A DNA stretch of 35,455 bases from an uncultured Gammaproteobacteria bacterium (GCA_913060775.1 CAJXVN010000005.1:1-35455), one strand, 5' to 3'. Positions 1 to 35,455 are shown, counted from the stretch's first letter. Numbers and translations: made by a program. Notes: generated from the sequence alone by a model not told the origin.

Positions 1-1191
1 ATCGCCCACGATTCGCAGATTCCCAAAACCGGTGATTTTGTCACCACCTACATGGGAGAGGACGGAGTCATTGGCGTCCGCGATAAAGGCGGTCAGGTAC
101 GGGTGTTTCTCAACTCCTGCCCCCATCGAGGCAACAAGGTTTGCTACGCAGACAGCGGTAATTCCAAAAATTTCACCTGCAACTATCACGGCTGGGCGTT
201 TGGCATGGATGGCTCCTTGCTAGGCATCCACAACGAGCACATTTACGAAGGCGATATCAACAAAGCCGACTGGGGCCTGCGGGAAGCACGAGTTTCAACC
301 TATAAGGGTCTGGTGTTTGCCAATTTCGATGTTGAAGCCCCGGAGCTAGACGACTGGCTGGGTGATTATCGCTGGTACCTGGACATGCTCCTCGATAACG
401 AAGAGGGCGGCATTGAATTTTTACCCGGCACGATTAAATCCTACGTCAACGCCAACTGGAAATTCGGCGTCGAAAATTTCATCGGCGACTCCCTCCACGC
501 AATGTGGACCCATGACTCCGGCGCCAAAGCAATGATGGGCGGGGAACCCTTCCCACCGGCGGACCAGACCGGCAGTTACCACGGCTCAGCCAACGGCCAC
601 GGTTGGGAGTTTGGCACGGATGGTATCTCCGATATCGCCATCCTCGGACAGCCGGAAGTTATTGAATACTACGAATCGATACGACCGAAAATGCGTGAAC
701 GACTCGGGGAGATGCGCGCCAAAATTTTCGGCTCGCTGGCCTCCGCCGCCATGTTTCCGAACATCTCGTTTCTGCCCGGTCTTGGGACCTTCCGGGTCTG
801 GCTACCACGCGGACCCCGCAAGATGGAACTGCGCATCTGGACCATCGTCAACAAAAACATGCCGGACCATATCAAGCAGCTGATTAACAAAGGCACCATG
901 CTCACCTTCAGCCCCGGCGGCACCCTGGAAATGGACGACGGCGAAAACTGGGAAGGCAATACCCAGACAAACAAGGGCGTTATCACCCGTCAGGGCAAAC
1001 TCCATTACGGCTGCGGCAACGCCAGCCGTATCGACCACCCGGAAATACCCGGCATTGTCCATCACGGCCAGTATAACGATGCTAACCAGCTGGCGTTTTA
1101 CCAGCGCTGGGCCGACCTGATGAACGCCGACAGCTGGGAGGATGTTCCCCAGCGCCACGAACCTCGTTTCGCCGGCAAACCGACTCGCTAG
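1..1191 (+). CDS. Rieske ring-hydroxylating dioxygenase, alpha subunit (5' truncated)
   Basis: Large catalytic subunit of a Rieske non-haem iron oxygenase, which would dihydroxylate or monohydroxylate an aromatic ring in the cytoplasm using electrons from a ferredoxin. The frame is open from base 1, so the gene begins outside the window; 396 residues remain. In fragment numbering the Rieske ligands are C40, H42, C60 and H63 (CPHRG, CNYHGW). The catalytic-domain motif ENFIGDSLHAMWTH gives bridging D163 and iron ligands H166 and H171, and LEMDDGEN near the C-terminus carries the third, Asp ligand. Compared with naphthalene dioxygenase, about 40 N-terminal residues are missing. The layout and the C-terminal MDDGEN motif place it with the naphthalene/PAH dioxygenase group, close to the second alpha subunit at 3037. 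The beta subunit follows after 12 bases. Family is certain; substrate is unknown. Confidence 0.93.
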   Translation: MAHDSQIPKTGDFVTTYMGEDGVIGVRDKGGQVRVFLNSCPHRGNKVCYADSGNSKNFTCNYHGWAFGMDGSLLGIHNEHIYEGDINKADWGLREARVSTYKGLVFANFDVEAPELDDWLGDYRWYLDMLLDNEEGGIEFLPGTIKSYVNANWKFGVENFIGDSLHAMWTHDSGAKAMMGGEPFPPADQTGSYHGSANGHGWEFGTDGISDIAILGQPEVIEYYESIRPKMRERLGEMRAKIFGSLASAAMFPNISFLPGLGTFRVWLPRGPRKMELRIWTIVNKNMPDHIKQLINKGTMLTFSPGGTLEMDDGENWEGNTQTNKGVITRQGKLHYGCGNASRIDHPEIPGIVHHGQYNDANQLAFYQRWADLMNADSWEDVPQRHEPRFAGKPTR

Positions 1192-1203
1192 GGAGAATCA
1201 ACC

Positions 1204-1752
1204 ATGGGCGCCACCGCACAAAAAATCACCAAAAAACCCAATCCAGCCAAACCGAGTCTGGAACTCATCAACGACGTTCAACAGTTCCTCTACCGCGAAG
1301 CCCGACTGCAGGATGCTCAGGCCTACCGAGACTGGCTAACCATGCTTACCGACGATATCCACTACTGGATGCCGACCCGGGAACAACGCTACCGGTCCAA
1401 CCCTATGGAGCCGGACATTACCCACGCGGCCCATTACAACGACAACTACGCCGACCTGGAAACCCGTATCCGCCGCACCGAGACCGGCACCTGCTGGTCA
1501 GAGGACCCGGCGACCCGCAGCGCCCACGTCGTCACCAACATTGAAGTGGAACTCACCGATTCGCCGAATGAATATCGGGTTTATTCGCTAATCGCGGTCT
1601 ATCGCAACATGAACGAGGACGAGGAGCACACGCTCTACGGCCATCGCGAGGACATTCTGCGTAACGTCAATGGAGAATTAAAACTGGCCAGGCGAAAAAT
1701 CATTATCGACCAGAATATTTTCCTGAGTAAAAGCCTGAACGTTTACCTCTAA
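1204..1752 (+). CDS. Ring-hydroxylating dioxygenase, beta (small) subunit
   Basis: Small structural subunit of the alpha3beta3 dioxygenase formed with the alpha subunit just upstream. It has 182 residues, typical for the family, and the usual start of the fold (FLYREARLQDAQAYRDWLTML), the core DDIHYWMP and a C-terminal segment in which RRKIIIDQNIFLSKSLNVYL-type residues end in a hydrophobic strand. It has no cofactor motif, as expected. GGGAG lies 8 bases before the ATG, and the gap after the alpha gene is 12 bases, so the two are translated from one message. A Lys/Pro-rich tail of about 20 residues precedes the conserved fold. It stabilises the hexamer and is not expected to bind substrate alone. 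Confidence 0.93.
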   Translation: MGATAQKITKKPNPAKPSLELINDVQQFLYREARLQDAQAYRDWLTMLTDDIHYWMPTREQRYRSNPMEPDITHAAHYNDNYADLETRIRRTETGTCWSEDPATRSAHVVTNIEVELTDSPNEYRVYSLIAVYRNMNEDEEHTLYGHREDILRNVNGELKLARRKIIIDQNIFLSKSLNVYL

Positions 1753-1764
1753 ACTCTGACACAC

Positions 1765-1781
1765 GGGTGTTAATGACACCC
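1765..1781 (+). other. Small intercistronic hairpin
   Basis: GGGTGT and ACACCC form a perfect 6-bp stem around a TAATG loop, in the 45-base gap between the first beta subunit and the XylM/AlkB-like gene. There is no T-run after it, so it is not a typical terminator. It could tune mRNA stability between the soluble oxygenase genes and the membrane protein gene. It is short enough to be chance. Confidence 0.3.
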
Positions 1782-1797
1782 CTGTAGGACCACCAAA

Positions 1798-2913
1798 ATG
1801 ATGGATTACTTACGTTATTACCTCTGTTCGCTTACCGTCATAGTAGCCATCATTGGCTTCATGCTCGGTGGACAGTGGATGTGGCTGGGCCTGGGAACCT
1901 TTCCCGTGCTGATGGCACTTGACCTCTTACTAGGTAAAGATTTTGCACCGCGCAAGATCAACCACCCGCTGATCGCGGACATACCGCTTTACCTGCATGT
2001 CGCGTTAATGGTCGCGCTCTATGCCACCTTTGCGTGGCGTGTAGACCAGGGTATCGGCACCAGCGGTGGTAATGCTGCGCTCGCACTGACCGGCGCATTT
2101 TTTACAATGTTGTGGCTGAACATGGTGCCAACGGTACCCGTGGTCCACGAACTGATGCACCGTCATGGACAAATTCCGCGTTTTTTTGCCAAGTTCGGCT
2201 CAGCATTTTTTGCCGACATGAACCGCGACGTTGCTCATTTAATGACCCATCACATTCACTTTGACACCCTCAAGGACAGCGACACCGGGGTTCGTGGTGA
2301 AAATGTTTACCGGTTCATGTGGCGAGCCACCAAAGGCAGTTATCTTGATGCATGGGAAACCGAGAATCGGCGCCTGGCCGCCCGCGGCAAAAGTGCCTGG
2401 TCATTGCAGAGCATGATTCTCTGGGCGGCACTCACCGTGGCATTGATATTCCTCGCCATCACACTCTATGCCGGGATTACCGCCGGACTGGTGGCATTGG
2501 CATCCATCATAGCCTCCAAATTCATGCTCGAAGCACTGAATTTTCTCCAGCATTACGGCCTGGTTCGCCCCGAAGGCGTGCCCATGGGCAAACAGCACAC
2601 CTGGAATCACCTTTCTACCGTCTCCAGAATTATTGGCTACGAAATCACTACCCACATTGATCACCACAAAAACGGTGACCTGCGCTTTGATCAGCTAATA
2701 CCCCACCGAGACGCGCCGCAAATGCCCAGTGTTTTTCTCTGCGCGGTCATGGTGTTATTTCCACCAATCTGGAACCGTTATGCGCAACAACGGCTTCAGG
2801 AATGGGATGAAACCTTTGCATCCCCAGAAGAGCGTGAACTTGCCCGAGCCGCTAATCGCCGAGCCGGCTGGCCTGACTGGCTCGCAGAGTCTACCGAGTC
2901 GGTAGCTGCGTAA
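1798..2913 (+). CDS. Membrane di-iron hydroxylase, XylM/AlkB family
   Basis: Integral membrane non-haem di-iron monooxygenase, expected to hydroxylate an alkyl carbon such as the methyl group of an alkyl-aromatic (XylM, p-cymene monooxygenase) or an alkane (AlkB). The histidine boxes are HELMH at residues 117-121, HLMTHH at 147-152, LQHYGL with H252, and THIDHH at 286-290. Hydrophobic helices occupy roughly residues 8-45, 60-80, 93-115 and 203-245. At 371 residues it matches XylM and is shorter than AlkB (about 400). HELMHR in place of the HELGHK of AlkB favours the XylM side. It sits between two soluble Rieske alpha/beta pairs with AGGA before the ATG, so all five genes are probably one operon. 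No XylA-type reductase is nearby; a rubredoxin gene lies 3.7 kb away on the opposite strand. Confidence 0.85.
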   Translation: MMDYLRYYLCSLTVIVAIIGFMLGGQWMWLGLGTFPVLMALDLLLGKDFAPRKINHPLIADIPLYLHVALMVALYATFAWRVDQGIGTSGGNAALALTGAFFTMLWLNMVPTVPVVHELMHRHGQIPRFFAKFGSAFFADMNRDVAHLMTHHIHFDTLKDSDTGVRGENVYRFMWRATKGSYLDAWETENRRLAARGKSAWSLQSMILWAALTVALIFLAITLYAGITAGLVALASIIASKFMLEALNFLQHYGLVRPEGVPMGKQHTWNHLSTVSRIIGYEITTHIDHHKNGDLRFDQLIPHRDAPQMPSVFLCAVMVLFPPIWNRYAQQRLQEWDETFASPEERELARAANRRAGWPDWLAESTESVAA

Positions 2914-3036
2914 AATCCACGAAGCCCGGCGCGACAGAGTTCTCTAAATACTACTTTCGCGACAGGCCATGCGGGCTTTGCTACCAGCACCCAGCGATGT
3001 AACAATGCGGGTTGATCAAAGCTAAAGGAAAATCCG

Positions 3037-4371
3037 ATGAAACCAGTTGACGAACTAGTCCTTGAGGACGGCGCTTACCAGCACCGCACCATGTTCTGGA
3101 ACGAAGATATTTACGAAGCAGAACTGGAACATATTTTCTCCCGCGCCTGGCTGTTTTTAACGCACGAGTCACTAATCCCGGAAGCTGGCGATTACAACAC
3201 CACCCGCATGGGTGAAGATAAAGTCATCGTCATCCGCCAGCAGGACGGTTCGATCAGAGCATTCATCAACTCCTGTCGCCATCGTGGTAACACGGTTTGC
3301 CATGCCGATGCTGGCAACACCCGTCAGTTCACCTGCAGTTATCACGGCTGGTCTTATGGCAGCAACGGCGAATTGATTGGCGTGCCGCTAGAACAAGACG
3401 CTTATTTCAACCAGATCGACAAATCAAAATTTGGCCTTCAGGAAATTGCCCAGGTGGCATCTTACAAAGGCATGGTTTTTGGTACCTTCGACGCAAGCGC
3501 GCCCGACCTGGAGACTTACCTGGGTGATATGCGCTGGTATATGGACTCATTTCTGGATGTGCCGGGCGGTATCGAGCTGATCGGCCCGCCGATGAAGTCG
3601 ATTCTAAACTGCAACTGGAAGACCCCGGCGGAGAACTTTGGCGGAGACGATTACCATTTTGGCTGGACCCATGCGGCCGGAGTAGCGGTAATGGGTGGCC
3701 CACTGGAAATGCTTGCCGGAAATACCGGGGTACCCAATGAAGTTGGTTTTCAGGTCGGCTCCAGTTATGGCCACATTTTTGGCTTTATTGAGGGTGGCGC
3801 GGCAGCGCTACAGCCGTTCCCTGAATGGCGGGAAATGTACGATAACTGGCTCAACAGCCGCCTTCCAGGTCAGGAAGAAAAATTTGGGCCTCTGCAGGCA
3901 CGGTTTTATAAGGGCCACTGGAACGCAAACATTTTCCCTAACTGCAGTTTTTTATACGGCACCAACACTTTCAAGGTATGGCAACCCAGAGGCCCTCGGG
4001 CAATCGAGGTCTATACCTGGACGCTAGTAGAAAAAGAGATGCCGGCCGAGCTCAAGCAGATGATGCACCGCAGTAACGCGGCCACCTTTGGCACCGCCGG
4101 CATGCTGGAAAGCGACGACGGCGAAAACTTTGAGGAGTGCACCCAAACCAATCGCGGGTTTAATACGCGTCAGGGATATTGTCATGCAGGCATGGGGCAG
4201 CAGAATGAGGGGCCCCACCCCGATATGCCCGGCGTCATCAGCGATAACCTCATGGCCGAAACCGGCCTGCGTAATTTTTATCGAACCTGGGCGCGCATGG
4301 TCAACGGTGACGACTGGACCCAGATAGGGGCACCGGCCACCGCGCCGCTAAAAAAATTGAGGGCGGTTTGA
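3037..4371 (+). CDS. Naphthalene-dioxygenase-like alpha subunit
   Basis: Catalytic subunit of a Rieske dioxygenase, 444 residues, full length. It can be aligned by eye along most of its length with naphthalene dioxygenase NahAc: WLFLTHESLIP, the DGSIRAF stretch, CSYHGW, GSNGEL, and AENFGGDDYHFGWTHA all have direct counterparts. Rieske ligands are C80, H82, C100 and H103. D204 bridges to the iron held by H207, H212 and D361 (LESDDGEN). AAAGGAA precedes the ATG. The beta gene overlaps it by one base (TGATG), which points to coupled translation. The product is expected to act on a bicyclic or other large aromatic, but substrate specificity cannot be read from these residues. No ferredoxin or reductase gene is adjacent. 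Confidence 0.94.
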   Translation: MKPVDELVLEDGAYQHRTMFWNEDIYEAELEHIFSRAWLFLTHESLIPEAGDYNTTRMGEDKVIVIRQQDGSIRAFINSCRHRGNTVCHADAGNTRQFTCSYHGWSYGSNGELIGVPLEQDAYFNQIDKSKFGLQEIAQVASYKGMVFGTFDASAPDLETYLGDMRWYMDSFLDVPGGIELIGPPMKSILNCNWKTPAENFGGDDYHFGWTHAAGVAVMGGPLEMLAGNTGVPNEVGFQVGSSYGHIFGFIEGGAAALQPFPEWREMYDNWLNSRLPGQEEKFGPLQARFYKGHWNANIFPNCSFLYGTNTFKVWQPRGPRAIEVYTWTLVEKEMPAELKQMMHRSNAATFGTAGMLESDDGENFEECTQTNRGFNTRQGYCHAGMGQQNEGPHPDMPGVISDNLMAETGLRNFYRTWARMVNGDDWTQIGAPATAPLKKLRAV

Positions 4372-4925
4372 TGGCCGATCAAACCCAACCATCAACCGGT
4401 TCGACTCAGGCTGGTCAACCCGTCGATCAGCAAACCCATTTTGAAATTGAACGATTTATGGTCCGCGAGGCACGCCTGCTTGACCAGGATCGTCTGCACG
4501 AATGGCTTGAACTGTTGGCGCCAGACATTCGCTATCAGCTGCCGGTACAGGAAGTTCGCTACCGCAAGGACACCCAGCCGATTGGTTCCGCCACTGGCAC
4601 CTACATCTTCGATGATGATTACAAACTGCTGGAGATGCGCGTCAACCGCATGGACACAAACCTGGTCTGGTTTGAAGATCCCAAAACCAGTAGCCGACGA
4701 CTGATTACCAACATCGATGCCGAATGGAGTGAACAGGCGGGCGAAATCGACGCCTATTCCACCTTTTTAACTTACCGTAATCGGCGCCAAAGCGACGAAA
4801 CCTGGCTAGTAGGCGCTCGTGAAGACCGGCTACGTAAGACCGATCAGGGCTGGCGGCTAGTTAACCGGGTGATACTGCTGGATCAACGGGTCGTTCAGGA
4901 CAAAAATCTTCACCTGTTCCTGTAA
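4371..4925 (+). CDS. Ring-hydroxylating dioxygenase, beta subunit (second pair)
   Basis: Small subunit partner of the naphthalene-dioxygenase-like alpha subunit. It has 184 residues, with the family pattern FMVREARLLDQDRLHEWLELL, then DIRYQLPVQEVRYR, and a C-terminal hydrophobic stretch ending in HLFL. I chose the ATG at 4371, whose A is the last base of the alpha stop codon; GAGG lies 8 bases upstream. The first 20 or so residues are a Gln/Thr/Ser-rich tail. Only 10 bases separate its stop codon from that of the convergent yaaA, and no strong terminator is visible there. Confidence 0.93.
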   Translation: MADQTQPSTGSTQAGQPVDQQTHFEIERFMVREARLLDQDRLHEWLELLAPDIRYQLPVQEVRYRKDTQPIGSATGTYIFDDDYKLLEMRVNRMDTNLVWFEDPKTSSRRLITNIDAEWSEQAGEIDAYSTFLTYRNRRQSDETWLVGAREDRLRKTDQGWRLVNRVILLDQRVVQDKNLHLFL

Positions 4926-4935
4926 TCCAGAAAAC

Positions 4936-5709
4936 TCAGCTTTCTGCGCTATCCCGGCTAAACACCCAGTCGTTGCCCTGGGATTGTTCAGCATCAAAAC
5001 GATAGCCCTGCCAGTCAAACTGCTTTAATTGTTCGGGGTGCTGCAACCGGTTTTCGATCACAAACCGGGCCATGGCACCGCGCGCCCGTTTAGCAAAGAA
5101 ACTGATGATTTTGTATTTGCCGTTTTTCAGGTCCTTGAATTGCGGGGTAATAATCTCCCCTACGACCTGACTGGCTTTCACCGCCCTGAAATACTCGTTT
5201 GAGGCCAGATTGACCAACACTTTTTCTGTTTTAAGTAACCGATTCAACTCGTCAGTGAGCTGGTTACCCCAGAATTCGTAGAGATTCCTGCCTTCACTGT
5301 TTTCAAACCGGGTGCCCATCTCCAGCCGGTAAGGCTGAATTAAATCGAGGGGTTTTAGCAGGCCATACAGCCCCGACAGAATACGTAGATGCTGCTGGGA
5401 GAATTGTAGATCCTCCTCGGTGAACGAGGTCGCATCCAGGCCCTGATAAACGTCACCGGTAAAAGCCAGTAACGCCTGCTTGCTGTTATCAACAGTAAAC
5501 CTGGGTTCCCAGCTCTGGTACCGCTGATAGTTCAGATCAGCCAGTTTCTCGCTAATCGACATTAACCCCGCAATCTCACCACTACCGAGTTTACGCAACT
5601 GCGCTATCAACGCAGTCGACTGATCAACAAAATCAGGCTGAGATGCGGGCAGGTGCTCGGCAGGGGTTTCAAAATCAAGGCTTTTAGCAGGAGAAAGAAC
5701 AATAATCAT
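4936..5709 (-). CDS. yaaA: Peroxide-stress protein YaaA (DUF328/UPF0246)
   Basis: Cytoplasmic protein of 257 residues that matches the YaaA family from end to end: MIIVLSPAKSLDFETP at the start, FTGDVYQGL, LSGLYGLLKPLDLIQPYRLEMGT in the middle and KIISFFAKRARG near the end. In E. coli, YaaA lowers free iron during hydrogen peroxide stress and binds DNA; the biochemical activity is not well defined. The ATG has no good Shine-Dalgarno sequence. It is convergent with the oxygenase operon and is probably core genome next to the catabolic genes. Confidence 0.93.
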   Translation of the reverse strand: MIIVLSPAKSLDFETPAEHLPASQPDFVDQSTALIAQLRKLGSGEIAGLMSISEKLADLNYQRYQSWEPRFTVDNSKQALLAFTGDVYQGLDATSFTEEDLQFSQQHLRILSGLYGLLKPLDLIQPYRLEMGTRFENSEGRNLYEFWGNQLTDELNRLLKTEKVLVNLASNEYFRAVKASQVVGEIITPQFKDLKNGKYKIISFFAKRARGAMARFVIENRLQHPEQLKQFDWQGYRFDAEQSQGNDWVFSRDSAES

Positions 5710-10869: not shown

Positions 10870-11355
10870 TCAAATCAGAAAAGTAAGATCATGAATTTCG
10901 CCGTCGCAGTTGAGCAACGCCACTTTTTTAAAAGCAATTTTCCACTCATCACCTTCCTTTCGCAGCCGATGTTCGCAGAAAGCGGGAAAGGTTTGCAGCG
11001 GATAAAAACGCCTCTGAACGTTATTCCGATACTCATAGATCAGCACGTTTGAACGCAGAGTGACTTCCTCGTCGGTGTCATTTTCAACTTCAACATTGCT
11101 AATCTGGTGCAGCGTGCTCGAAGGCGGCTGCTGCGCCCAACAGTAATCACTTTCCAGGCGACCGAGTCGCTCTTCGAGCAGGTCCATATCATCGTAAATA
11201 TAGGAAACGTGCTCCTCGGGATCGGCATCCGGATCATTAGCAGGGACCCAGTAAATAGCATCGCTGGTGAAGAGTTTCTGCCACTCACGGTTTTTGCCAG
11301 TATTGAGCAGGCGCGCTTCCCGGTATAAAAAATTTTCTGCTTCGCTTCGTTCCAT
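10870..11355 (-). CDS. Ring-hydroxylating oxygenase, beta subunit (third pair)
   Basis: Small subunit of the oxygenase encoded with the alpha gene at 11375. It has 161 residues, with ENFLYREARLLNTGKNREWQKLF, SDAIYWVPANDPDADPEE, and a C-terminal FKKVALLNCDGEIHDLTFLI-like strand typical of the family. I chose the ATG at 11355, 20 bases after the alpha stop, with GGAG 10 bases upstream; an in-frame GTG at 11385 would overlap the alpha gene by 11 bases. The 162 bases after it, up to the CMD/VOC gene, hold only weak imperfect inverted repeats and no clear terminator, so the message may continue. Confidence 0.9.
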   Translation of the reverse strand: MERSEAENFLYREARLLNTGKNREWQKLFTSDAIYWVPANDPDADPEEHVSYIYDDMDLLEERLGRLESDYCWAQQPPSSTLHQISNVEVENDTDEEVTLRSNVLIYEYRNNVQRRFYPLQTFPAFCEHRLRKEGDEWKIAFKKVALLNCDGEIHDLTFLI

Positions 11356-11374
11356 TGAACCCTGTCTCCGAACC

Positions 11375-12634
11375 TTATTCCACACCAGCCATCAGGCGAC
11401 GATACTCATAGTAGGGCGCGCGTTGCTGGGTTTCCTGTGTTAAGTCACCCATCCGGTTACCCTTCTCATCTACCGTTTCGGATTCAACGCCTCGGTTAAG
11501 GTGTACCCACGGCACTTCGCCGGCTTTGTAGCCTTCCTGCATACGGGCAAAAATAGAGTAGTCGTCCGGCCCGCCAAAAGAGGCCTGGCCGTAAAAAAAC
11601 TCATGATCACGGATTCGACGCAGGTTAACTTCCTTCGGCACCCCATCGAGCAGGGTGTGGTATAGCCGCACCTCGGTTTCGGTGGCACTGAGCGGTCGAA
11701 TCACCCGGAACTGATATTCCAGAATCGCGAAATTGGGGAATATCACCATATTGAAACGCGAGCGGAGCGCGTCCATCGCCGCCGTTTCGCCGTGGGCTTC
11801 TCGCAGCATTTCAACGTAATCTTTTGGCCAGCGCTGGTGCACCTCTTCATCCGAGAGTTTATAAATCTCCAGCACGTTATTGCCGTGACCGGTGTCGTAC
11901 CCATGCAGTCCGGAGTTAGTCAAACCCTTCAGGTGGCCACCCATTTTGCGGGCCATAACATCCAGCGCCGTGTGGTGGGTAAAAATCGCGTGGTACCCCT
12001 CGACACTACCCTCGGTCTGAATTTTCCAGTTACCGTCATACGGGTGTTTATAAACCCCAGACTTACCGACAATAATTTTGCCGGTAGGGGAGAGATTCAT
12101 ATAAAGGTCGATCACCTCCTTGATATTGCCAAGCTTTTCGTCAAGCGTGATATCCGGGGCTTCATAAAGGCTGGCAAAAATAATGCCGCGATAACTGTCG
12201 ACCTTGGCCGCGTGCACCAGGCCCAGTTTTTCCTGATCAACCTCGCCGTCGTTGTAACCCCGCGGCAAACCGATGGTAATCAGCTCGCCGTCTGGCCCGT
12301 ATTCCCAGCCGTGGTAAGGACAGACAAATTTATCTTTATTGCCCGATTCGGAATTGCAGACCGTCGAACCGCGATGCATACAGCGGTTAATCATTACGTT
12401 GATTTTGTCGTTCTGATCCCGGGTAACCAGTACCGGAATTTCGCCGATAAACGTGGTTTTGTAATCACCGGGATTGGGAATTTCACTGTCGTGAGCCACG
12501 TAAATCCAGGAACGGTAGAAAATCCTCTCTAACTCATCCTGATAGACCTCTGGCGAGGTGTACAGACTAACGTGGGTATGGCCAGTACGGGCCAGATCTG
12601 CGTAATTGCGTTTGGATCCCCCTGGTGCGTTCAT
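11375..12634 (-). CDS. Rieske oxygenase alpha subunit with a bridging glutamate
   Basis: Catalytic subunit of a Rieske non-haem iron oxygenase, 419 residues. Rieske ligands are C85, H87, C105 and H108 (CMHRG, CPYHGW). The iron-site motif reads TEGSVEGYHAIFTHH: H215 and H220 are the iron ligands, and E212 stands where nearly all family members, including the other four in this window, have the Asp that connects the two metal centres. The usual preceding Asn is Gly. Glu at this place is known from the carnitine oxygenase CntA group. GGGGAGG lies before the ATG. It diverges from the benzoate-dioxygenase-like gene at 13062 and shares control elements with it. Having a true beta partner sets it apart from CntA, which has none. 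Substrate unknown. Confidence 0.92.
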   Translation of the reverse strand: MNAPGGSKRNYADLARTGHTHVSLYTSPEVYQDELERIFYRSWIYVAHDSEIPNPGDYKTTFIGEIPVLVTRDQNDKINVMINRCMHRGSTVCNSESGNKDKFVCPYHGWEYGPDGELITIGLPRGYNDGEVDQEKLGLVHAAKVDSYRGIIFASLYEAPDITLDEKLGNIKEVIDLYMNLSPTGKIIVGKSGVYKHPYDGNWKIQTEGSVEGYHAIFTHHTALDVMARKMGGHLKGLTNSGLHGYDTGHGNNVLEIYKLSDEEVHQRWPKDYVEMLREAHGETAAMDALRSRFNMVIFPNFAILEYQFRVIRPLSATETEVRLYHTLLDGVPKEVNLRRIRDHEFFYGQASFGGPDDYSIFARMQEGYKAGEVPWVHLNRGVESETVDEKGNRMGDLTQETQQRAPYYEYRRLMAGVE

Positions 12635-12671
12635 ATCGAACCTCCCCCTCTTTATATTGACTGGTTAAAAT

Positions 12672-12695
12672 CGACGAGTCTGAATAGACCCGTCG
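12672..12695. promoter_or_regulatory. Inverted repeat with AATAGACC core, leftward gene side
   Basis: GACGAGTCT (12673-12681) and AGACCCGTC (12686-12694) are inverted repeats around a GAAT spacer with one mismatch, and C12672 pairs with G12695. The right arm with its flank, AATAGACCCGTC, repeats at 12994 with one change. It lies about 40-60 bases before the leftward ATG, a usual position for a repressor site. Confidence 0.45.
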
Positions 12696-12761
12696 CTCTC
12701 TATACGGACAGGCGGGCGACCATTTCCAGCCCTTTCCACAATAGTCCTGACGCCCGTCAAG

Positions 12762-12775
12762 TTAACAAATGTTAA
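12762..12775. promoter_or_regulatory. Candidate operator TTAACA-AA-TGTTAA
   Basis: A perfect 6-2-6 inverted repeat, flanked by G on both sides, about 130 bases before the leftward alpha gene. It is the same class as the sites at 7956 and 12979. Confidence 0.5.
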
Positions 12776-12978
12776 GGGCGCGTATCTTGCCACGCCTTGC
12801 CGGTTGCCTGACGAAAAAATATATCGCTATGAATTTTACCCCCTGATCGGAGCAGCACCCCGAATTTCCGACCTGAAGTCAGCCCCAATCAACGATTCGT
12901 TATGAAATCGGACAACTCTGAACACCCTCATCAACGGCTCATGCCGGCCGACAGGGTGGAACAGACGGCTCAGTAGCT

Positions 12979-12992
12979 TTAACGAACGTTTA
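12979..12992. promoter_or_regulatory. Candidate operator TTAACG-AA-CGTTTA
   Basis: A 6-2-6 inverted repeat with one mismatched pair that overlaps the -35 hexamer of the promoter at 12989. A protein bound here would block polymerase. It shares the TTAACG-NN-CGTT core with 7956 and also the AGC found just before that site. Confidence 0.5.
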
Positions 12993-13018
12993 CAATAGAC
13001 CGGTCGGTCAACTATAAA
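12989..13018 (+). promoter_or_regulatory. Sigma-70-type promoter of the benzoate-dioxygenase-like operon
   Basis: TTTACA (12989-12994; one change from TTGACA) and TATAAA (13013-13018; one change from TATAAT) are 18 bases apart. Transcription would begin near 13025, leaving a leader of roughly 35 bases that includes GGAGGAG before the ATG at 13062. Both candidate operators of this region overlap the promoter. Confidence 0.6.
12994..13011. promoter_or_regulatory. NemR-box-like element in the promoter spacer
   Basis: AATAGACC-GGTC-GGTCAA lies between the -35 and -10 hexamers. TAGACC-N4-GGTCAA differs by one base from TAGACC-N4-GGTCTA, which I recall as the operator of the TetR-family repressor NemR. 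The word AATAGACCSGTC recurs at 12683 on the other side of the divergent region. A TetR-family repressor is the natural guess; none is encoded here. Confidence 0.45.
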
Positions 13019-13061
13019 ACCACCCAGAATTCCCATACACCCTTTACGGAGGAGCTACCCC

Positions 13062-14411
13062 ATGCAACCAGAAGATCTTAACTGGCGAATCAAGGACGAA
13101 CCCGGCGAAACATTTCGCGTGCATCGCTCAATTTACACCGATGAAGAGATTTTTGAACTGGAAATGAGCCACATCTATGAAGGTGGCTGGATCTACATTG
13201 ATCATGAAACTCATTTGCAGAAAGAGAACGACTACATCACCACCTTTATTGGCCGCCAGCCCGTCATCATTGTTCGCGGCAAGGGTGATGATTATCGCGG
13301 CTACATCAATGCCTGTAGTCATCGCGGCGCTAAAGTCTGCCGACAGGCCAGCGGGAACGCCAAAAATTTTGTTTGTCCCTATCACGGCTGGGTCTACAAC
13401 AGCAGCGGCAAACTACTGGACATTAAAGACAAAGATCGCGGTGGATTTCCGGAAGGTTACCTGGACCGCGATTACGACCTGGTGCCCGTGCCCCACGTTC
13501 AGGCCCACCACGGATTCATTTTCGCCAGTCTGAATCCCAACAGCCCCCCTTTGCTCGAACACCTGGGTGAGAGTGCACGCTTCATCGAAATGTTTGCTAA
13601 CGAGTCCAAAGATGGCCTGGAAGTGCTGCGTGGTCGTTCGACCTACACCCATCGCGGAAACTGGAAAATGCAGGCCGAAAATGGGGTCGATGGCTATCAC
13701 GTTGATGTCGTCCACGCGTCCTATTTCCGACTGGCCGCAGAACGGGCCAAGCTGGCGGCTGCCGCCAAAGGTGAGGATGGAGTCAAGGCCATTCAGGTCA
13801 ACTTAACCGACACCGATAACGGCAATTACGACCTGGGCAACGGCCACGTGATGATCTGGACCGATATCCCCAACTACCGAGATCGCGCTCTGGGCATGCA
13901 ATACGACACCCTGGAAGAGCGAGTCGGTAAGCTGGAAGCAAAATGGATGGCCGGTCGTCTTCGTCAGGTTCTCATTTACCCAAATCTGATCCTGTTCGAT
14001 GGCATTTCTACCCAGTTACGTAGCTGGAACCCGATCGCCGTCGATAAGACTGAAGTCTATGCCGTCTGCGTCGCTCCCAAAGGGGAACCGGAAGAAGCCC
14101 GCGAACGTCGAATCCGTCAATACGAAGATTTCTACGGCGCGAGCGGCATCGCAACCCCCGATGACCTGACCGAATTCGATGCCTGCCAGGATGGCTACAA
14201 CGGTCGACTGGCCGAATGGCACGATTTTGATCGCGGCATGGGTAGACTCCACCTGGGCGCCGATAAATTTGCCGAGGAAGTGGGTATTACTCCCGTGAGT
14301 AGCGCCAGCGATTTTGCCGATGAGGCGCTTTACCACGGAGAGTATCGTCACTGGCTCGAAACACTAACCAAAGGCATTCAGGCTGAACAGGAGACAGCAC
14401 ATGGCGCTTGA
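13062..14411 (+). CDS. Benzoate-dioxygenase-like (BenA/XylX type) alpha subunit
   Basis: Catalytic subunit of a Rieske dioxygenase, 449 residues. It resembles BenA/XylX by eye over its length: YTDEEIFELEMSHIYEGGWIY, the IGRQPVIIVR stretch, INACSHRGA, GLEVLRGRSTYTHRGNWKM, AENGVDGYHV, and RRIRQYEDFYGASGIATPDD. Rieske ligands are C85, H87, C105 and H108; D210 is the bridging Asp, and H213 and H218 bind iron. In that family benzoate or a substituted benzoate is dihydroxylated to a cyclohexadiene diol carboxylate. GGAGGAG precedes the ATG, and the beta gene overlaps the 3' end by 11 bases. The reductase (BenC) and diol dehydrogenase (BenD) that normally follow are absent: a terminator comes directly after the beta gene. 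The exact substrate is therefore open. Confidence 0.93.
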   Translation: MQPEDLNWRIKDEPGETFRVHRSIYTDEEIFELEMSHIYEGGWIYIDHETHLQKENDYITTFIGRQPVIIVRGKGDDYRGYINACSHRGAKVCRQASGNAKNFVCPYHGWVYNSSGKLLDIKDKDRGGFPEGYLDRDYDLVPVPHVQAHHGFIFASLNPNSPPLLEHLGESARFIEMFANESKDGLEVLRGRSTYTHRGNWKMQAENGVDGYHVDVVHASYFRLAAERAKLAAAAKGEDGVKAIQVNLTDTDNGNYDLGNGHVMIWTDIPNYRDRALGMQYDTLEERVGKLEAKWMAGRLRQVLIYPNLILFDGISTQLRSWNPIAVDKTEVYAVCVAPKGEPEEARERRIRQYEDFYGASGIATPDDLTEFDACQDGYNGRLAEWHDFDRGMGRLHLGADKFAEEVGITPVSSASDFADEALYHGEYRHWLETLTKGIQAEQETAHGA

Positions 14412-14907
14412 TGCAGCCCAGCTAAAAGAAGCAGCAACCGAACTACTGCTGGAAGAAGCAGACACCATTGACCAGCGCCGTTGGGATGACTGGCTGGCAC
14501 TTTTTGAAGAAGACGCCACCTACTACGCGCCTGCCTGGGAAGGTGATGATGATCTCACTAGCGACCCGCATCAGGAGATATCACTCATCTTCTGCGGCAA
14601 TCGGGAGCGCATGTGGGACCGGGTCTGGCGGATCAAGTCAAATTTGTCATCGTCACTGGCCAGAATGCCCCGCACCTGCCATTTGGTGACCAATATTCGT
14701 GTTAGTGATGTCAGTAATTCGGCTCTCAAGGCCACGGCTAATTTTCGTACCGAAACGTTTAAGCATGAGGAAAAAGACAGCACCGCGTTTTTCGGTCGCT
14801 ACCTTTATGACTTAAAGCGCACCGGCGACCAGTTAACCATCCAGAACAAAAAAATCATCGTCTACAACGACATCATTCCCCGGCAGATGGATATTTTTAA
14901 TATCTGA
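14401..14907 (+). CDS. Benzoate-dioxygenase-like beta subunit
   Basis: Small subunit partner (BenB/XylY type) of the alpha subunit it overlaps by 11 bases. It has 168 residues, with LLLEEADTIDQRRWDDWLALFEEDATYYAPAWEGDDDLT-like residues at the start of the fold (residues 14-50), NRERMWDRVWRI, and a final IQNKKIIVYNDIIPRQMDIF stretch. AGGAG lies 8 bases before the ATG, inside the alpha gene. It ends 15 bases before a strong hairpin, so this operon has only two genes. Confidence 0.92.
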   Translation: MALDAAQLKEAATELLLEEADTIDQRRWDDWLALFEEDATYYAPAWEGDDDLTSDPHQEISLIFCGNRERMWDRVWRIKSNLSSSLARMPRTCHLVTNIRVSDVSNSALKATANFRTETFKHEEKDSTAFFGRYLYDLKRTGDQLTIQNKKIIVYNDIIPRQMDIFNI

Positions 14908-14922
14908 TTTTTTCCGCAACAA

Positions 14923-14958
14923 AACCAGAACGCCCCGCTAATGCGGGGCGTTCTGGTT
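14923..14958. terminator. Bidirectional terminator between convergent operons
   Basis: A perfect 16-bp stem, AACCAGAACGCCCCGC (14923-14938) with its complement at 14943-14958, closed by a TAAT loop. On the - strand it is followed by TTTTGTTG, so it is a good terminator for the molybdenum hydroxylase operon ending at 15004. On the + strand the tail is TTATAAC, weaker but still likely to end the benzoate-type operon. Confidence 0.85.
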
Positions 14959-15003
14959 ATAACAATGCGACTGGAACTCGCAACGGCTCAGGGCATCGCG
15001 TAA

Positions 15004-15294
15004 TCACCCACCGCCGATGGCCGGAATAAAGAATAATTCGCAGGATTGCTGCAAAGGCACCAGTAACGCATTCGTTACTACCCCATCCACAGCAACGGCC
15101 ACTCCAGGCGCCATGCGGCCGTCGACCATCAACTTGTCGAGAAAACCGGGATGAATTTCATCCAGGTTGCGAATGATCTGACGAACGCTATTACCCTCAA
15201 CCTCTACCCACTCTTCACCCGCCGACAATGGGCGCATGGTCACCGGGATATGCACCCGGTGAACCAGCACCTGTTTGGCAGTCGCTTCAGCCAT
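15004..15294 (-). CDS. MoaD/ThiS-like ubiquitin-fold protein
   Basis: Small protein of 96 residues whose C-terminus is FFIPAIGGG, the flexible Gly-Gly tail that MoaD and ThiS use as an adenylated then thiocarboxylated sulfur carrier. The middle (VEVEGNSVRQIIRNLDEIHPGF, then VAVAVDGVVTN, then PLQQSCELFFIPA) fits the beta-grasp fold. It is the last gene of the molybdenum hydroxylase operon, 6 bases after the large subunit, which suggests a role in making or sulfurating the molybdopterin cofactor for that enzyme. The N-terminus is about 10-15 residues longer than E. coli MoaD. The ribosome binding site is weak, so expression probably depends on coupling. Confidence 0.8.
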   Translation of the reverse strand: MAEATAKQVLVHRVHIPVTMRPLSAGEEWVEVEGNSVRQIIRNLDEIHPGFLDKLMVDGRMAPGVAVAVDGVVTNALLVPLQQSCELFFIPAIGGG

Positions 15295-15300
15295 GAGTAG

Positions 15301-17589
15301 TTACTTACCCTTCTGTTCCCAGATCGCTTTAAGCACGTTACCAGGCTTCATCGGCAAGTCGTTCAGGCTCACGCCGATGGCATTCTTGATAGCGTCGCGA
15401 ATTGCAGCAGGTGGCGGCACAATTGGAACCTCACCAACGCCACGAACACCATAAGGATGGCCCGGGTTCGGGGTCTCCAGAATGGTGCAATCGATATTGG
15501 GAACATCCAGGCTGGTCGGCATCCGATAATCGAGCAATGTCGGATTACGAAGGGTGCCCTTCTCGTCGTAGAAGTACTCTTCGTTGAGCGCCCAACCGAT
15601 ACCCTGAACGGTACCGCCCTGCATCTGACCTTCAACAAAGTCAGGATGGACTGCCTTACCGACGTCCTGCAAGGTGCTGTAACGGAGGATATCGACCTTG
15701 CCCGTTTCCACATCAACTTCGACATCAACGATGTTGGCCGCAATCTGGAAACCCACGCCCTCAGGAAACTCAGAGGCATCGGCAATCAATGGACCACCGG
15801 TATGGTCAGCTTTCCCACAAATCTCGCCAAACGACAGCGTCTTGCTGGAATCGCTTTTGAGAGTAAAAACACCCGAGGCATAATCCACCTCGGACCCTTC
15901 CACTTCCCATTCCATCGCCGCCCGTTTTTTCATCTCCTCTACCAGCTTTCTACAGGCTGAAATAACGGCGATACCGGTGGCAAAGGTGGTACGACTGCCC
16001 ACCGACTGAAAGGTATAGCCAACCGAATCCGTATCACCAACGTTGGTGGTAATCAGGTCATTGTCGACACCCAGTTCTTCCGCCGCCTGCATGCCCAGGG
16101 TCGTGCGCGTACCACTAAGGTCAGCACTACCGGTAGTCAGGTTGATGGTGCCATCCGTGTTACAACGAATCTCCGCACAGGAAGCCAGGCCAGCACCGAA
16201 CCAGAAGGCATAAGAAATACCACGACCCCGGTTTTCACCTTCCAGCGGAGCGGTGTAGTGGGGGTGGTTTTTGATGGCATTAAGCATCTCGATGCTGCCC
16301 AGAGGCGGGCAGGGGAAACCCATCGGCATCATGTCGCCCGGCTTCAGCGCGTTAGTAAGCCGGAACTGAATCGGATCAATGCCAGCCATTTCCGCTAAAT
16401 CAGCGATTGCACTCTCTGCCGCAAAGTTTGCCTGAGTTGCACCCGGCGCACGGTAAGGTTTCATCTTTGGCTTGTTCAGAAACACATCGTAGCCATCTAA
16501 CCGCACATTCGGGATGTTGTAACGCGTCAGCGCGCACATGGTGCCGGGGGCAATCGGGCCACCAGGATAAGCACCCGCCTCAAACAACAGATACAGATCT
16601 GCCGCCAGCAGCTGGCCTTCGTTATTACAGCCAATTTTTACTTTAATGTAGGTCTCAGGACTGGGGCCGGTGCCACGAAGTACTTCGCTGCGGCTCATAA
16701 AAATCTTCACAGGCCGACCGGTGCGTTTGGCCATGACGGCGGCCAACGAATCAAGATAAACCACGTCTTTACCACCAAAGCCGCCGCCAATTTCCATTGG
16801 CACAACTTTGATTTTGCTCATCGGCATGTTCATGAAACTGGCCATGAAATCACGAATAGCAAAACCACCCTGAGTGGAGGTATGGATGGTCAGCGTATCT
16901 TCACCAGTCCAGACGGCGGTTGTCACGTGGGGCTCAATATAGCCCTGGTGAACCGATTTGGTGGTGAACTCGCGCTCGACCACGTGATCGCAGGCATCGA
17001 AAGTAGCATCGACATCGCCGTGCTCCATGAACAGACGACCGGCGTTGGGTAAGGCTTTTTGAGTGGGGAACAGAAACGCACCCGGGGTGTAATCCTCATG
17101 CAGGACCGGCGCCCCTTCTGCCACCGCATCGTGAACATTCAGCACCGGCTCGAGCAGTTCATACTCAACCTCGATCAGCGCACAGGCAGCCTCGGCAATA
17201 TGCTTGTTATCCGCCGCCACTGCAGCCACCACGTGACCGTCATAAAAGACCTTGTCACGGGCAATACAGTTATCGGCGATATCCTGCATGTTGACTTCGC
17301 CGCCTTCACCGGCTGCGACCACCGTTGAGCTCAAGGTCGGCATATCGGCACCGGTAATGACGGTGCGAACGCCCTTGAGTGCAGCGGCTTTGCTGGTATC
17401 GATGGACACGATCCGCGCATGCGGATGCGGGCTACGCAACATGGCACCGTGGAGCATTCCGGGTAGATGAATATCATCGCCAAACAGGGCGGCACCGGTA
17501 ACTTTCTCCTCGCCATCCTTGCGGATCGGGGTAGTACCGACGACGTCAAATTCAGTTTTTACGGGTGGGGGGGTTGTTGGCGCATTCAT
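15301..17589 (-). CDS. Xanthine-dehydrogenase-family molybdopterin subunit (CoxL-like)
   Basis: Large catalytic subunit of a molybdenum hydroxylase, 762 residues. After the a/b-hammerhead region (GTTPIRKDGEEKVTGAALFGDD at about 18-39), it has the MoCo-binding signatures GGGFGGKD, PYRAPGATQ and near the C-terminus GVRGVGEVP, in which E720 is the catalytic Glu. The PYRAPGA loop differs from the AYxCSFR of form I CO dehydrogenase, so this is not a CO dehydrogenase. Relatives hydroxylate N-heteroaromatics, aldehydes or purines, or reduce 4-hydroxybenzoyl-CoA. GGAGGAA lies inside the end of the preceding 2Fe-2S gene, and the two genes are 2 bases apart. Gene order M-S-L is the usual one. It may prepare a substrate for the neighbouring oxygenases, but that is inference. 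Confidence 0.92.
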   Translation of the reverse strand: MNAPTTPPPVKTEFDVVGTTPIRKDGEEKVTGAALFGDDIHLPGMLHGAMLRSPHPHARIVSIDTSKAAALKGVRTVITGADMPTLSSTVVAAGEGGEVNMQDIADNCIARDKVFYDGHVVAAVAADNKHIAEAACALIEVEYELLEPVLNVHDAVAEGAPVLHEDYTPGAFLFPTQKALPNAGRLFMEHGDVDATFDACDHVVEREFTTKSVHQGYIEPHVTTAVWTGEDTLTIHTSTQGGFAIRDFMASFMNMPMSKIKVVPMEIGGGFGGKDVVYLDSLAAVMAKRTGRPVKIFMSRSEVLRGTGPSPETYIKVKIGCNNEGQLLAADLYLLFEAGAYPGGPIAPGTMCALTRYNIPNVRLDGYDVFLNKPKMKPYRAPGATQANFAAESAIADLAEMAGIDPIQFRLTNALKPGDMMPMGFPCPPLGSIEMLNAIKNHPHYTAPLEGENRGRGISYAFWFGAGLASCAEIRCNTDGTINLTTGSADLSGTRTTLGMQAAEELGVDNDLITTNVGDTDSVGYTFQSVGSRTTFATGIAVISACRKLVEEMKKRAAMEWEVEGSEVDYASGVFTLKSDSSKTLSFGEICGKADHTGGPLIADASEFPEGVGFQIAANIVDVEVDVETGKVDILRYSTLQDVGKAVHPDFVEGQMQGGTVQGIGWALNEEYFYDEKGTLRNPTLLDYRMPTSLDVPNIDCTILETPNPGHPYGVRGVGEVPIVPPPAAIRDAIKNAIGVSLNDLPMKPGNVLKAIWEQKGK

Positions 17590-17591
17590 GA

Positions 17592-18068
17592 TTAAGCTTC
17601 CTCCATCACAGCAGCGGCTTTCTGCACGGCTTTAACAATTTTATCGTAGCCAGTACAACGGCAAAGGTTATTAGCCAGCCAGAAACGAATCTCTTCTTCG
17701 CTGGGGTTGGGCTTTGATTTCAGTAATTCTTTGGAGGAAATCAAAAACCCCGGTGTGCAGATACCGCATTGCATGCCCGTCTCTTCGAGAAATGCCTGCT
17801 GCAGGGGGTGCAGCGCGTCCGGGGTTGCCATGCCTTCAACGGTTTCTACCTTCTTACCATCGGCTTCAACGCCCAGCACACAGCAGGACGCGACCAGGGT
17901 GCCGTCAAATACGACACTACAGGCACCGCAGTTACCATCATTGCACCCTTCCTTGGTACCGGTCAGCTTTAGTTCATCGCGAAGAACTTCTAACAGGCTT
18001 TGCCGTGGTTCAGCAAGAAACTCAACCTCATCACCATTAACGGTGGTGGTTACATGTACTTTGCTCAT
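17592..18068 (-). CDS. Molybdenum hydroxylase 2Fe-2S subunit (CoxS-like)
   Basis: Small iron-sulfur subunit, 158 residues, carrying two [2Fe-2S] clusters that pass electrons from molybdopterin to FAD. The plant-type cluster ligands are C42, C47, C50 and C62 (EGCNDGNCGACS). The second cluster, in the helical domain, uses C101, C104, C136 and C138 (QCGICTPG, LCRCTGY). The length is normal for the family. It starts 15 bases after the FAD subunit gene, with AGGGAG upstream of the ATG, and ends 2 bases before the large subunit. Confidence 0.95.
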   Translation of the reverse strand: MSKVHVTTTVNGDEVEFLAEPRQSLLEVLRDELKLTGTKEGCNDGNCGACSVVFDGTLVASCCVLGVEADGKKVETVEGMATPDALHPLQQAFLEETGMQCGICTPGFLISSKELLKSKPNPSEEEIRFWLANNLCRCTGYDKIVKAVQKAAAVMEEA

Positions 18069-18083
18069 CAGTGATCGTCTCCC

Positions 18084-18953
18084 TTAGCCTTTGGCCCGCG
18101 CCACTGCTTCCCGCAGGGTACGTTTGGTCAATACATTTATCAGATGCTTGCGCTGTTCAATCGTGCCACGCATGTCGTTAATAGGCGTAGCGACTGCCTC
18201 GGCAGCGTCAGCGGCCTCCTGGATAGACGCTTCATTCACCGGCTTGCCGGCAAGCAAATCGCCAGCACCCTGGGCAAAAATCGGCGTGGGGCCAACCGCA
18301 CCCAGTGCAATGCGGGCGGACTCAAAGGTACTTCCGTCACCGCTGAGCACCACTGAAGACGCCACACTGGCAATCGCGATATCCATTTCATTACGCGGAA
18401 TAAAGCGTTGAAAGCAGGCACCGCTATTAGCAGCGGGAGCCGGGATATTGATGGTCAATAGCAACTCGTTATCTGCTAACGAAGTTTTACCCGGCGCGAC
18501 GCAGACATCTTCCACGGCCAGATTGCGCTGGCCATTCGGGCCAATAACGACGGCCTCGGCTCCCAACACAATCAAGGTTGGGATAGAGTCGCCACTGGGG
18601 GCTGCATTACAGAGATTCCCACCGATGGATGCACGACCCTGAGTCTGCATGCCACCAATAAGTTCCGCCGACTCGATCAACGCTGGATAGGCATCAACCA
18701 CGGCCGAATCTTCATAAAGTGTCCGGCAGGTAACGGCTGATCCCAGCTGCAGTCCATTACCATCAAGCTTGTACTGCTTGAGCTCTGGAATTTGCTTGGC
18801 ATCGACTACCAGGCCGGGGGTCGCCCGACCCACACGCATACCGATTAGTAAATCTGTGCCGCCGGCGAGAAGGCGCGCGTTGGACCCCTCTTTAGCCAAA
18901 ATGGCGACGGCATCACTCACCGATGTCGGTGTAGCGAAGTCAAAACTGTGCAT
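18084..18953 (-). CDS. Molybdenum hydroxylase FAD-binding subunit (CoxM-like)
   Basis: Medium subunit of 289 residues that binds FAD and hands electrons to the acceptor. FAD-contact motifs are LLAGGTDLLIGMRVG near residue 28 and RASIGGNLCNAAPSGDS near residue 107, and the C-terminal domain is of the CO-dehydrogenase flavoprotein type. It has the family's usual length. AAGGAG lies 8 bases before the ATG. It is the first gene of the operon, and because a terminator stands upstream at 19044-19076, its promoter should lie between 18954 and 19043; I see no near-consensus hexamers there. Confidence 0.93.
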   Translation of the reverse strand: MHSFDFATPTSVSDAVAILAKEGSNARLLAGGTDLLIGMRVGRATPGLVVDAKQIPELKQYKLDGNGLQLGSAVTCRTLYEDSAVVDAYPALIESAELIGGMQTQGRASIGGNLCNAAPSGDSIPTLIVLGAEAVVIGPNGQRNLAVEDVCVAPGKTSLADNELLLTINIPAPAANSGACFQRFIPRNEMDIAIASVASSVVLSGDGSTFESARIALGAVGPTPIFAQGAGDLLAGKPVNEASIQEAADAAEAVATPINDMRGTIEQRKHLINVLTKRTLREAVARAKG

Positions 18954-19043
18954 GGCCGCACTCCTTCCATCTGTAATATTGAATAGTTCTGATCACCATT
19001 GATGGCTGCTGGCGATCATCCTGAAAAGGTCGAAGAGCTTATC

Positions 19044-19076
19044 AAAAAAGCCCCTGGCAATGTCAGTGGTTTTTTT
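19044..19076. terminator. Bidirectional rho-independent terminator
   Basis: AAAAAAGCCCCTG (19044-19056) pairs with CAGTGGTTTTTTT (19064-19076) around a GCAATGT loop, a 13-bp stem with one C/T mismatch and one G-T wobble. The T tracts form terminator tails on both strands. It lies 18 bases beyond the stop of the lone Rieske gene at 19095 and separates it from the molybdenum hydroxylase operon. Confidence 0.85.
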
Positions 19077-19094
19077 CAGTTATTTAACAACCGT

Positions 19095-20363
19095 TCAACG
19101 TAACTCCATCATCTCGGTATACGCATTCCAGAACCCACGCACCGGGCCTTCGTCACCGAGAAAATCACCCTCGGTAGGTACGTCGGTGCCGCCCATCTTG
19201 ATCACCGCAGAGGCTTCGCTGTCTCTGGCGATACCTTTCTGGGCAATCTCAACGGCCAGACCGTCTTCCATCGACACCAGCCCGGCGGGGCCAATCAGAT
19301 TAATCTGCTTAAGCCGCATTTCGTCGATTTGCTCATCGTCATCTTCATAACCAAAAAAGGTGTAATGCACCGTGACCGAATCTGGACCATGGGGCTCAAA
19401 CTGGCGAATATTGAGCACGTTGGCGATCTGCTGGAGCATCATGATGGGAAAAACATCAATAATCACCAGGTTAATTCCGTCATCCCACTCCATTTTTCCG
19501 GCGAGCAGGCTCATGTCCTCAAGGGTGAATTTACCTTCCTGATAAGTATGGGCGGCCTCTTTGGTTCCCTGCGCTTTCGCCTGCTCATCCTCTTTACCCG
19601 CAAAGGTGTAAAAGCAGGTCTGTTTACCACCATTTTCAACGTGAATGCGTCCCTCCTGGCTGGCTCGAAACAGGCCAAAGGTGGCGAAAAAAACATGCAG
19701 CAGACTGGCGTGATAGCCATCTCGCGGGTTTTCTGCGTAGAGCTTCCAGTTGCCTTTCATATGCTGGCGCTGGCGACCGAGAATTTTGATCGGCCGATTA
19801 AAAATGCGCTTCATAAATTTGGCAACAGTGGGACCCAGATACTCTTCAAGCGGCTCTACTTCATCGCTAAAAGAGGCGAAAATCACCCCGTGAAAGCTCT
19901 CAACCTGTAGCGCCCGCGGGCGGTGCTTGGTCTGATCAAAGCACTCCGACATGCCGCCTTTACCGCCAAGACCGCGCTTGAAAGTAACACTCTCCAGAGT
20001 CCCGTCCAGGCCATAGCCCCATTGGTGGTAAACACAATAAAAGCCGTCACTGTTACCGTAGTTATCCAGAACGATATTGGCATTGCGGTGGGAACAGCGA
20101 TTCACCCAACAGTGAATCTGCTCATCATCACCCCGAACCAGCACGACCGGGGTATCGCCAATGTAGACAGTTTTGTAATCGCCCCGCTGAGGAATTTCCA
20201 CTTCCAGCCCGACAAAATTCCAGACTTCGCCGCGAAAGATTTTTTCCTGCTCACGCTGATAAATAGCCGGGTCATAAAACACACGGCCAGGAACTTCGGT
20301 GGCATTTTCCTCATCACCCGGCCATTCAAAGTCACCCAGATCGATGGATTCAATACGGTTCAT
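19095..20363 (-). CDS. Lone Rieske alpha subunit, salicylate/anthranilate-hydroxylase type
   Basis: Catalytic subunit of a Rieske oxygenase, 422 residues. Rieske ligands are C90, H92, C110 and H113. The surrounding residues are unusual: CSHRNA instead of CxHRG, and CVYHQW instead of C-x-YHGW. CVYHQW, together with the following Gly-rich stretch (RGLGGKGGM, residues 130-138), is a feature I associate with the NagG/AndAc group (salicylate 5-hydroxylase, anthranilate dioxygenase). The iron site AENPRDGYHASLLH gives D215, H218 and H223. That group normally has a beta subunit, but none is adjacent and a terminator follows directly, so it is a single-gene unit. GAGGAG lies 8 bases before the ATG. 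A partner beta subunit must be borrowed, lie elsewhere, or be dispensable. Confidence 0.9.
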   Translation of the reverse strand: MNRIESIDLGDFEWPGDEENATEVPGRVFYDPAIYQREQEKIFRGEVWNFVGLEVEIPQRGDYKTVYIGDTPVVLVRGDDEQIHCWVNRCSHRNANIVLDNYGNSDGFYCVYHQWGYGLDGTLESVTFKRGLGGKGGMSECFDQTKHRPRALQVESFHGVIFASFSDEVEPLEEYLGPTVAKFMKRIFNRPIKILGRQRQHMKGNWKLYAENPRDGYHASLLHVFFATFGLFRASQEGRIHVENGGKQTCFYTFAGKEDEQAKAQGTKEAAHTYQEGKFTLEDMSLLAGKMEWDDGINLVIIDVFPIMMLQQIANVLNIRQFEPHGPDSVTVHYTFFGYEDDDEQIDEMRLKQINLIGPAGLVSMEDGLAVEIAQKGIARDSEASAVIKMGGTDVPTEGDFLGDEGPVRGFWNAYTEMMELR

Positions 20364-35406: not shown

Positions 35407-35455
35407 CTGTCTCTTATACACATCTGACGCTGCCGACGAAGAGGATAGTGTAGAT
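35407..35455. other. Nextera sequencing adapter left on the contig end
   Basis: CTGTCTCTTATACACATCT (35407-35425) is the Tn5 mosaic end used in Nextera libraries. It is followed by GACGCTGCCGACGA (35426-35439), the rest of the read-1-side transposon adapter, then AGAGGATA (35440-35447), the reverse complement of i5 index TATCCTCT (known as S503/N503), then GTGTAGAT (35448-35455), the start of the P5 flow-cell sequence. It is not genomic DNA. Confidence 0.97.

Follow-up and report, generated by a model that had tools for sequence, protein, structure and literature searches.

The first five genes of a 35,455-nucleotide stretch of DNA from an uncultured gammaproteobacterium (GCA_913060775.1 CAJXVN010000005.1:1-35455; hereafter the window) probably represent the 3' portion of an operon encoding an upper pathway for aromatic hydrocarbons, built on the sphingomonad plan bphA1a-A2a-bphA1b-A2b-xylM, in which a divergent XylR-type activator and a sigma-54 promoter would precede the genes A0-B0-A1-B1-XylM-A2-B2. 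A1/B1 and A2/B2 denote the first and second alpha/beta subunit pairs of Rieske dioxygenases in the window (alpha1/beta1 and alpha2/beta2), A0/B0 a further pair on another contig (C252) of the same genome. The window is the complete contig C5 of a draft genome (G000; 3.06 Mb, 351 contigs, 90% complete), and its left edge is the end of the contig, not of the operon. The host is an uncultured genus of the Immundisolibacteraceae and a relative of the pollutant-degrading Immundisolibacter. The main genomes used for comparison were G001, a sister genome of the same genus, and the Immundisolibacter genomes G004 and G005, the latter being complete.

The order alpha-beta-XylM-alpha-beta on one strand, as given in an original prediction made from the window alone, was confirmed by profile matches for all five frames (Ring_hydroxyl_A, E 5e-16 and 2e-21; Ring_hydroxyl_B, 7e-41 and 6e-37; FA_desaturase, 6e-17), which correspond to a XylM-type hydroxylase and two different Rieske dioxygenases of the soluble type, with no reductase adjoining. 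Genes for XylA, a ferredoxin or TonB were not found in the window operon. Both alpha subunits keep the Rieske ligands C81/H83/C101/H104 as well as D205 and the iron-site residues H208/H213/D362 (naphthalene dioxygenase (NDO) numbering). By comparison with G001, alpha1 is short of 49 N-terminal codons, which lie off the contig; because all catalytic residues are conserved, it is no pseudogene over the part present. The tight spacing and overlaps of the original prediction were found in part: A1-B1 (12 bp) and B1-XylM (45 bp) are closely spaced, but XylM and A2 are separated by 123 bp, the largest gap, and the only overlap among the five genes is a single base between A2 and B2 (TGATG). Neither a terminator nor a sigma-54 site was found in the gaps between the five genes, and sigma-54 and sigma-70 promoter matches inside the window operon were no better than those in shuffled sequences. 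The coordinates are summarized in Table 1.

Table 1. Positions of the operon genes and of the right-hand neighbour in the window
Feature	Position	Strand	Remarks
alpha1 (A1), Rieske oxygenase alpha subunit, AhdA1b/BphA1b/EtbAa clade	1..1191	+	no start codon, cut by contig start
beta1 (B1), Ring_hydroxyl_B subunit	1204..1752	+	47% identical to pNL1 BphA2b
XylM-type membrane hydroxylase	1798..2913	+	conserved histidine motifs, no XylA adjoining
XylM-alpha2 gap	2914..3036	+	no terminator or sigma-54 site found
alpha2 (A2), complete Rieske oxygenase alpha subunit	3037..4371	+	nearest to BphA1f-type dioxygenases for polycyclic aromatic hydrocarbons
beta2 (B2), Ring_hydroxyl_B subunit	4371..4925	+	ATG at 4371
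yaaA, peroxide stress protein, convergent	4936..5709	-	right boundary of the operon, common to G001

Judged by its genes and their order, the window operon appears to be a variant of a known operon plan and not a new kind, its order being not unprecedented. The order A0-B0-A1-B1-XylM is present in G001, G004 and G005, and alpha-beta-alpha-beta-xylM-xylA on the plasmids pNL1 of Novosphingobium aromaticivorans F199 (with a TonB gene before xylM) and p1 of Sphingobium fuliginis KK22; a scan of GTDB yielded the same order in 24 loci from sphingomonads and related alphaproteobacteria. The plasmid table does not name the two alpha subunits of pNL1; they are taken by us to be BphA1a and BphA1b because of where they lie in the cluster and how they relate to EtbAa. 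Regarding the first of them (BphA1a) and its KK22 counterpart, the identity of A0 was 65-76%; regarding the second (BphA1b) and its KK22 counterpart, the identity of A1 was 62-63%, whereas the identity between A0 and A1 is only about 40%. The clades formed by A0 and A1 with their respective pNL1/KK22 counterparts were fully supported in the tree. On the same grounds of identity and tree, alpha2 was rejected as an equivalent of the second alpha subunit of the sphingomonad operon, the orthologue being A0 and not A2.

Compared with the sphingomonad block (pNL1, KK22 p1 and the ahd genes of Sphingobium sp. PNB), the operon, if joined to C252 as predicted, is alike in the divergent sigma-54 regulator, in A0-B0-A1-B1 followed by XylM and in alpha subunits 62-76% identical, but it has a XylM of another sub-clade, lacks XylA and TonB and carries A2-B2 after XylM. 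The operons of G001, G004, G005 and Rugosibacter share A1-B1-XylM of the same clades with no XylA adjoining XylM, but have no A2-B2 behind XylM. The XylM of the TOL plasmid pWW0 belongs to the same membrane hydroxylase family (45% identity), but its gene stands with xylA and the benzyl alcohol and benzaldehyde dehydrogenase genes, with no Rieske dioxygenase adjoining. The contrast with classic pathways, in which these enzymes are said to be encoded in separate units, thus holds for TOL pWW0 and the NDO plasmids but does not make the arrangement unusual, as sphingomonad plasmids and relatives in the family share the plan. Sphingomonad clusters of this kind were reportedly described in the late 1990s from strains F199 and B1. 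The bphA1 gene set on pNL1 has been discussed elsewhere (PMC2358900).

The left part of the operon is represented in G000 by C252 (4143 bp), which carries A0-B0; A0 is 84% identical to that of G001 and is the sole close A0 orthologue in the genome. Divergent to A0 lies a regulator gene with XylR_N, V4R, Sigma54_activat and HTH_8 domains, and a sigma-54 -24/-12 site, CTGGCACCCGAATTGCT, is found upstream of A0. Sites of the -24/-12 form were present in seven of the ten upstream regions tested (about 0.01 expected per 300 bp), using a search pattern that corresponds to the known -24/-12 consensus and was drawn up after some sites had been seen. The leftward extension proposed with the original prediction brought up C252 as a probable neighbour by synteny but no overlapping sequence: C252 runs into a Nextera adapter within the final codons of B0, and because it ends in adapter no exact overlap with the window start was found. 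Synteny predicts that C252 abuts base 1 of the window, at a distance of about 0.2 kb by comparison with G001. As the synteny is G001-like and C252 ends in B0, the likely operon is A0-B0-A1-B1-XylM-A2-B2, with a third alpha-beta pair at the left end. It is quite improbable that the window starts a different operon with only A1-B1-XylM-A2-B2 together and a left neighbour other than C252. Such a start would resemble the Rugosibacter loci L094, L096, L098 and L099, in which A1-B1-XylM were found with no A0-B0 before A1, and would agree with the missing overlap, but A0-B0 stand directly before A1 in G001, G004 and G005, the adapter explains why C252 breaks exactly in B0, and no other close A0 orthologue is available in the genome. 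C252 (L197) carries Nextera adapter sequence at both ends (near positions 30 and 4118), and contig breaks in this assembly may be adapter-driven.

A2-B2, which lie between XylM and yaaA in the window and are not found at this place in G001, G004 or G005, are extra relative to these three genomes. In G001 the operon ends with XylM, behind which come a strong terminator and yaaA; this, together with the 123-bp gap before A2 and the occurrence of A2 relatives elsewhere in the family as lone alpha-beta pairs, would suit two adjoining units, one ending at XylM and the other consisting of separately promoted A2-B2 with a substrate and regulation of their own. This arrangement is considered unlikely, as no terminator was found after the window XylM, neither a sigma-70 nor a sigma-54 site better than chance was found before A2, XylM and A2-B2 are on the same strand, and no mobile elements were seen at the XylM-A2-B2 junctions. 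A search for tRNA genes as insertion sites found none, and the GC content at third codon positions was uninformative as to whether XylM-A2-B2 are a foreign segment. A wrong joining of A2-B2 behind XylM during assembly could be suspected, since the genome is a draft in 351 contigs and Nextera adapters were left untrimmed at contig ends, but it is highly improbable given that the five-gene region contains no adapter, that the reading frames are clean across the junctions, that GC is even and that synteny with G001 is seen in both flanks.

The best solved relative of A2 was the BphA1f-type dioxygenase for polycyclic aromatic hydrocarbons (PAH) of Sphingobium yanoikuyae B1 (PDB 2gbw; 506 bits), and its identity to BphA1f of pNL1 was 51%, whereas no protein in the family genomes exceeded 61%. 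In the tree A2 has a long branch and groups with a set specific to the family (support 91/81), apparently outside the BphA1f branch; BphA1f of pNL1 also stands apart from xylM. An independent one-strand run of the form alpha-beta ... XylM-XylA-alpha-beta was observed in Centralia_MAG_294 (L115:4340-12214), so dioxygenase pairs flanking a XylM arose elsewhere too.

The TOL plasmid XylM acts on aromatic compounds by hydroxylating their methyl groups, and H117, H121, H147, H151, H152, H252, H286, H289 and H290 of the window protein are invariant with it. Of the XylM/AlkB label in the original prediction only the first half fits closely: full-length comparison of the window protein with annotated XylM proteins gave 44-48% identity, and it grouped with these apart from AlkB-like rows (support 100/99), whereas AlkB structures scored only about 100 bits. 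Within the XylM proteins it falls into a sub-clade with those of Rugosibacter and Immundisolibacter; a single clade with the sphingomonad XylMs was rejected (cost of 121 log-likelihood units, p-AU 2.3e-6). XylM was either recruited twice to the same place or swapped in one lineage, and the data favour neither. The identity to the G001 protein (window 1798-2913 versus L029:3771-4871) was 66%, compared with 81-93% for ten neighbour genes, with the strongest divergence around residues 200-240. Third-codon identity between the two genes was within the range of the ten neighbours, for which reason a recent import of XylM is not supported, and the fast divergence of the protein speaks more for relaxed or altered selection than for a clear import.

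A1 belongs to the AhdA1b/BphA1b/EtbAa clade (support 100/100, 12 rows in the tree). It is 63% identical over the whole length to EtbAa, the ethylbenzene dioxygenase of Rhodococcus jostii RHA1, whose gene differs in its location on pRHL2 beside meta-cleavage genes and a Rieske ferredoxin gene and not beside XylM. In the functional study of the ahd enzymes of strain PNB, AhdA1bA2b with AhdA3/AhdA4 formed dihydrodiols from ethylbenzene, propylbenzene, cumene, p-cymene, biphenyl and PAHs (PMC4048848). Attack by the operon on alkyl groups as well as rings is plausible by analogy, because this A1 orthologue oxidises p-cymene, other alkylbenzenes and PAHs; as it has already been assayed, direct experiments are possible. 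In the A1 gene of G005 (L031:11061-12247) the coding sequence is split over two frames, either by a real frameshift or by an assembly error, and the G004 copy is intact. G003 holds an A1-B1 relative (59% identical to BphA1b), behind which lies a transposase-like frame; that contig carries no XylM.

The proposed operon would be switched on when an aromatic effector acts on the XylR-type activator. A0B0 and A1B1 (alkylbenzene/PAH type) and A2B2 (PAH type) would then convert aromatic rings to cis-dihydrodiols, while XylM would hydroxylate methyl groups, so that bare and methylated aromatics of an oil mixture might be attacked in parallel; successive attack on a single molecule is conceivable. As the operon has no redox genes, the electrons have to be supplied from outside it, presumably by shared partners, namely a BphA3-like Rieske ferredoxin and a XylA-like reductase. 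Several points weigh against this picture: the joining of C252 to the window is based on synteny and not on sequenced DNA, the 123-bp gap between XylM and A2 could hold a promoter of a type outside the scans, the redox partners are guesses from genome content, and A1 shares only about 62% identity with AhdA1b, whose substrate range may therefore not apply to it.

Regarding electron supply, G000 and G005 each encode about 61 Ring_hydroxyl_A (PF00848) domains, and 22-57 were counted in the other family genomes (G001-G007; 53 in G001) versus 0-6 in the other class members sampled. For I. cernigliae, 21 copies annotated as xylX and six alkB have been reported (PMC9535955). One close BphA3-like ferredoxin was found per family genome tested; that of G000 (C2:2656-2979) is 45% identical to EtbAc, and two other matches were weak. 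The Reductase_C domain (PF14759), present in the BphA4-type reductases of pNL1 and RHA1, was not found in six family genomes (G000, G001, G003, G004, G005 and G006), although a divergent reductase could escape the searches; these genomes hold many Rieske alpha subunits (42-61 in five, 53 in G001). A BphA4 search with the pNL1 protein gave only weak matches, the best with 26-30% identity inside much larger open frames. FAD_binding_6 proteins numbered only three to four per genome tested. Two XylA-like reductases are present in G000, the nearest homologue on C2 (10855-11862) and a second on C60. The XylA on C2 lies about 0.6 kb from an alcohol dehydrogenase gene (L193:9161-11865), and G001 has alcohol dehydrogenase-XylM-XylA on its contig C14 (L047:195-3746); no XylM remnant was detected beside the orphan XylA on C2 of G000, which could serve the window XylM. 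It is possible, though doubtful, that in this lineage the approximately 61 Rieske alpha subunits per genome and the XylM-type hydroxylases, among them one XylM and three dioxygenases of a single sigma-54 operon, are all supplied by one BphA3-like ferredoxin and a small number of XylA-like reductases, BphA4-type enzymes being absent altogether, and that one XylA-like enzyme feeds both the membrane hydroxylase and the soluble dioxygenases.

The sphingomonad bph/xyl plan, with the same types of regulator and promoter, is thus also present in a gammaproteobacterial lineage tied to PAH removal, with the XylM slot filled from a different XylM branch; because the plan is the same and the XylM is from another branch, it becomes possible to test whether the coupling of ring and methyl attack is a trait under selection. 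With about 61 Rieske alpha subunits, one close ferredoxin and no BphA4-type reductase found, the redox imbalance raises the question of how one donor can serve so many oxygenases.

The last 49 bases of the window (35407-35455) are Nextera adapter sequence and thus a sequencing artefact. Further Rieske genes are located at 10870-20363, with three more alpha subunits (11375-12634, 13062-14411 and 19095-20363) and further beta subunits at 10870-11385 and 14401-14907; beside them, at 15301-18953, lies a three-subunit molybdenum hydroxylase of the xanthine dehydrogenase type.

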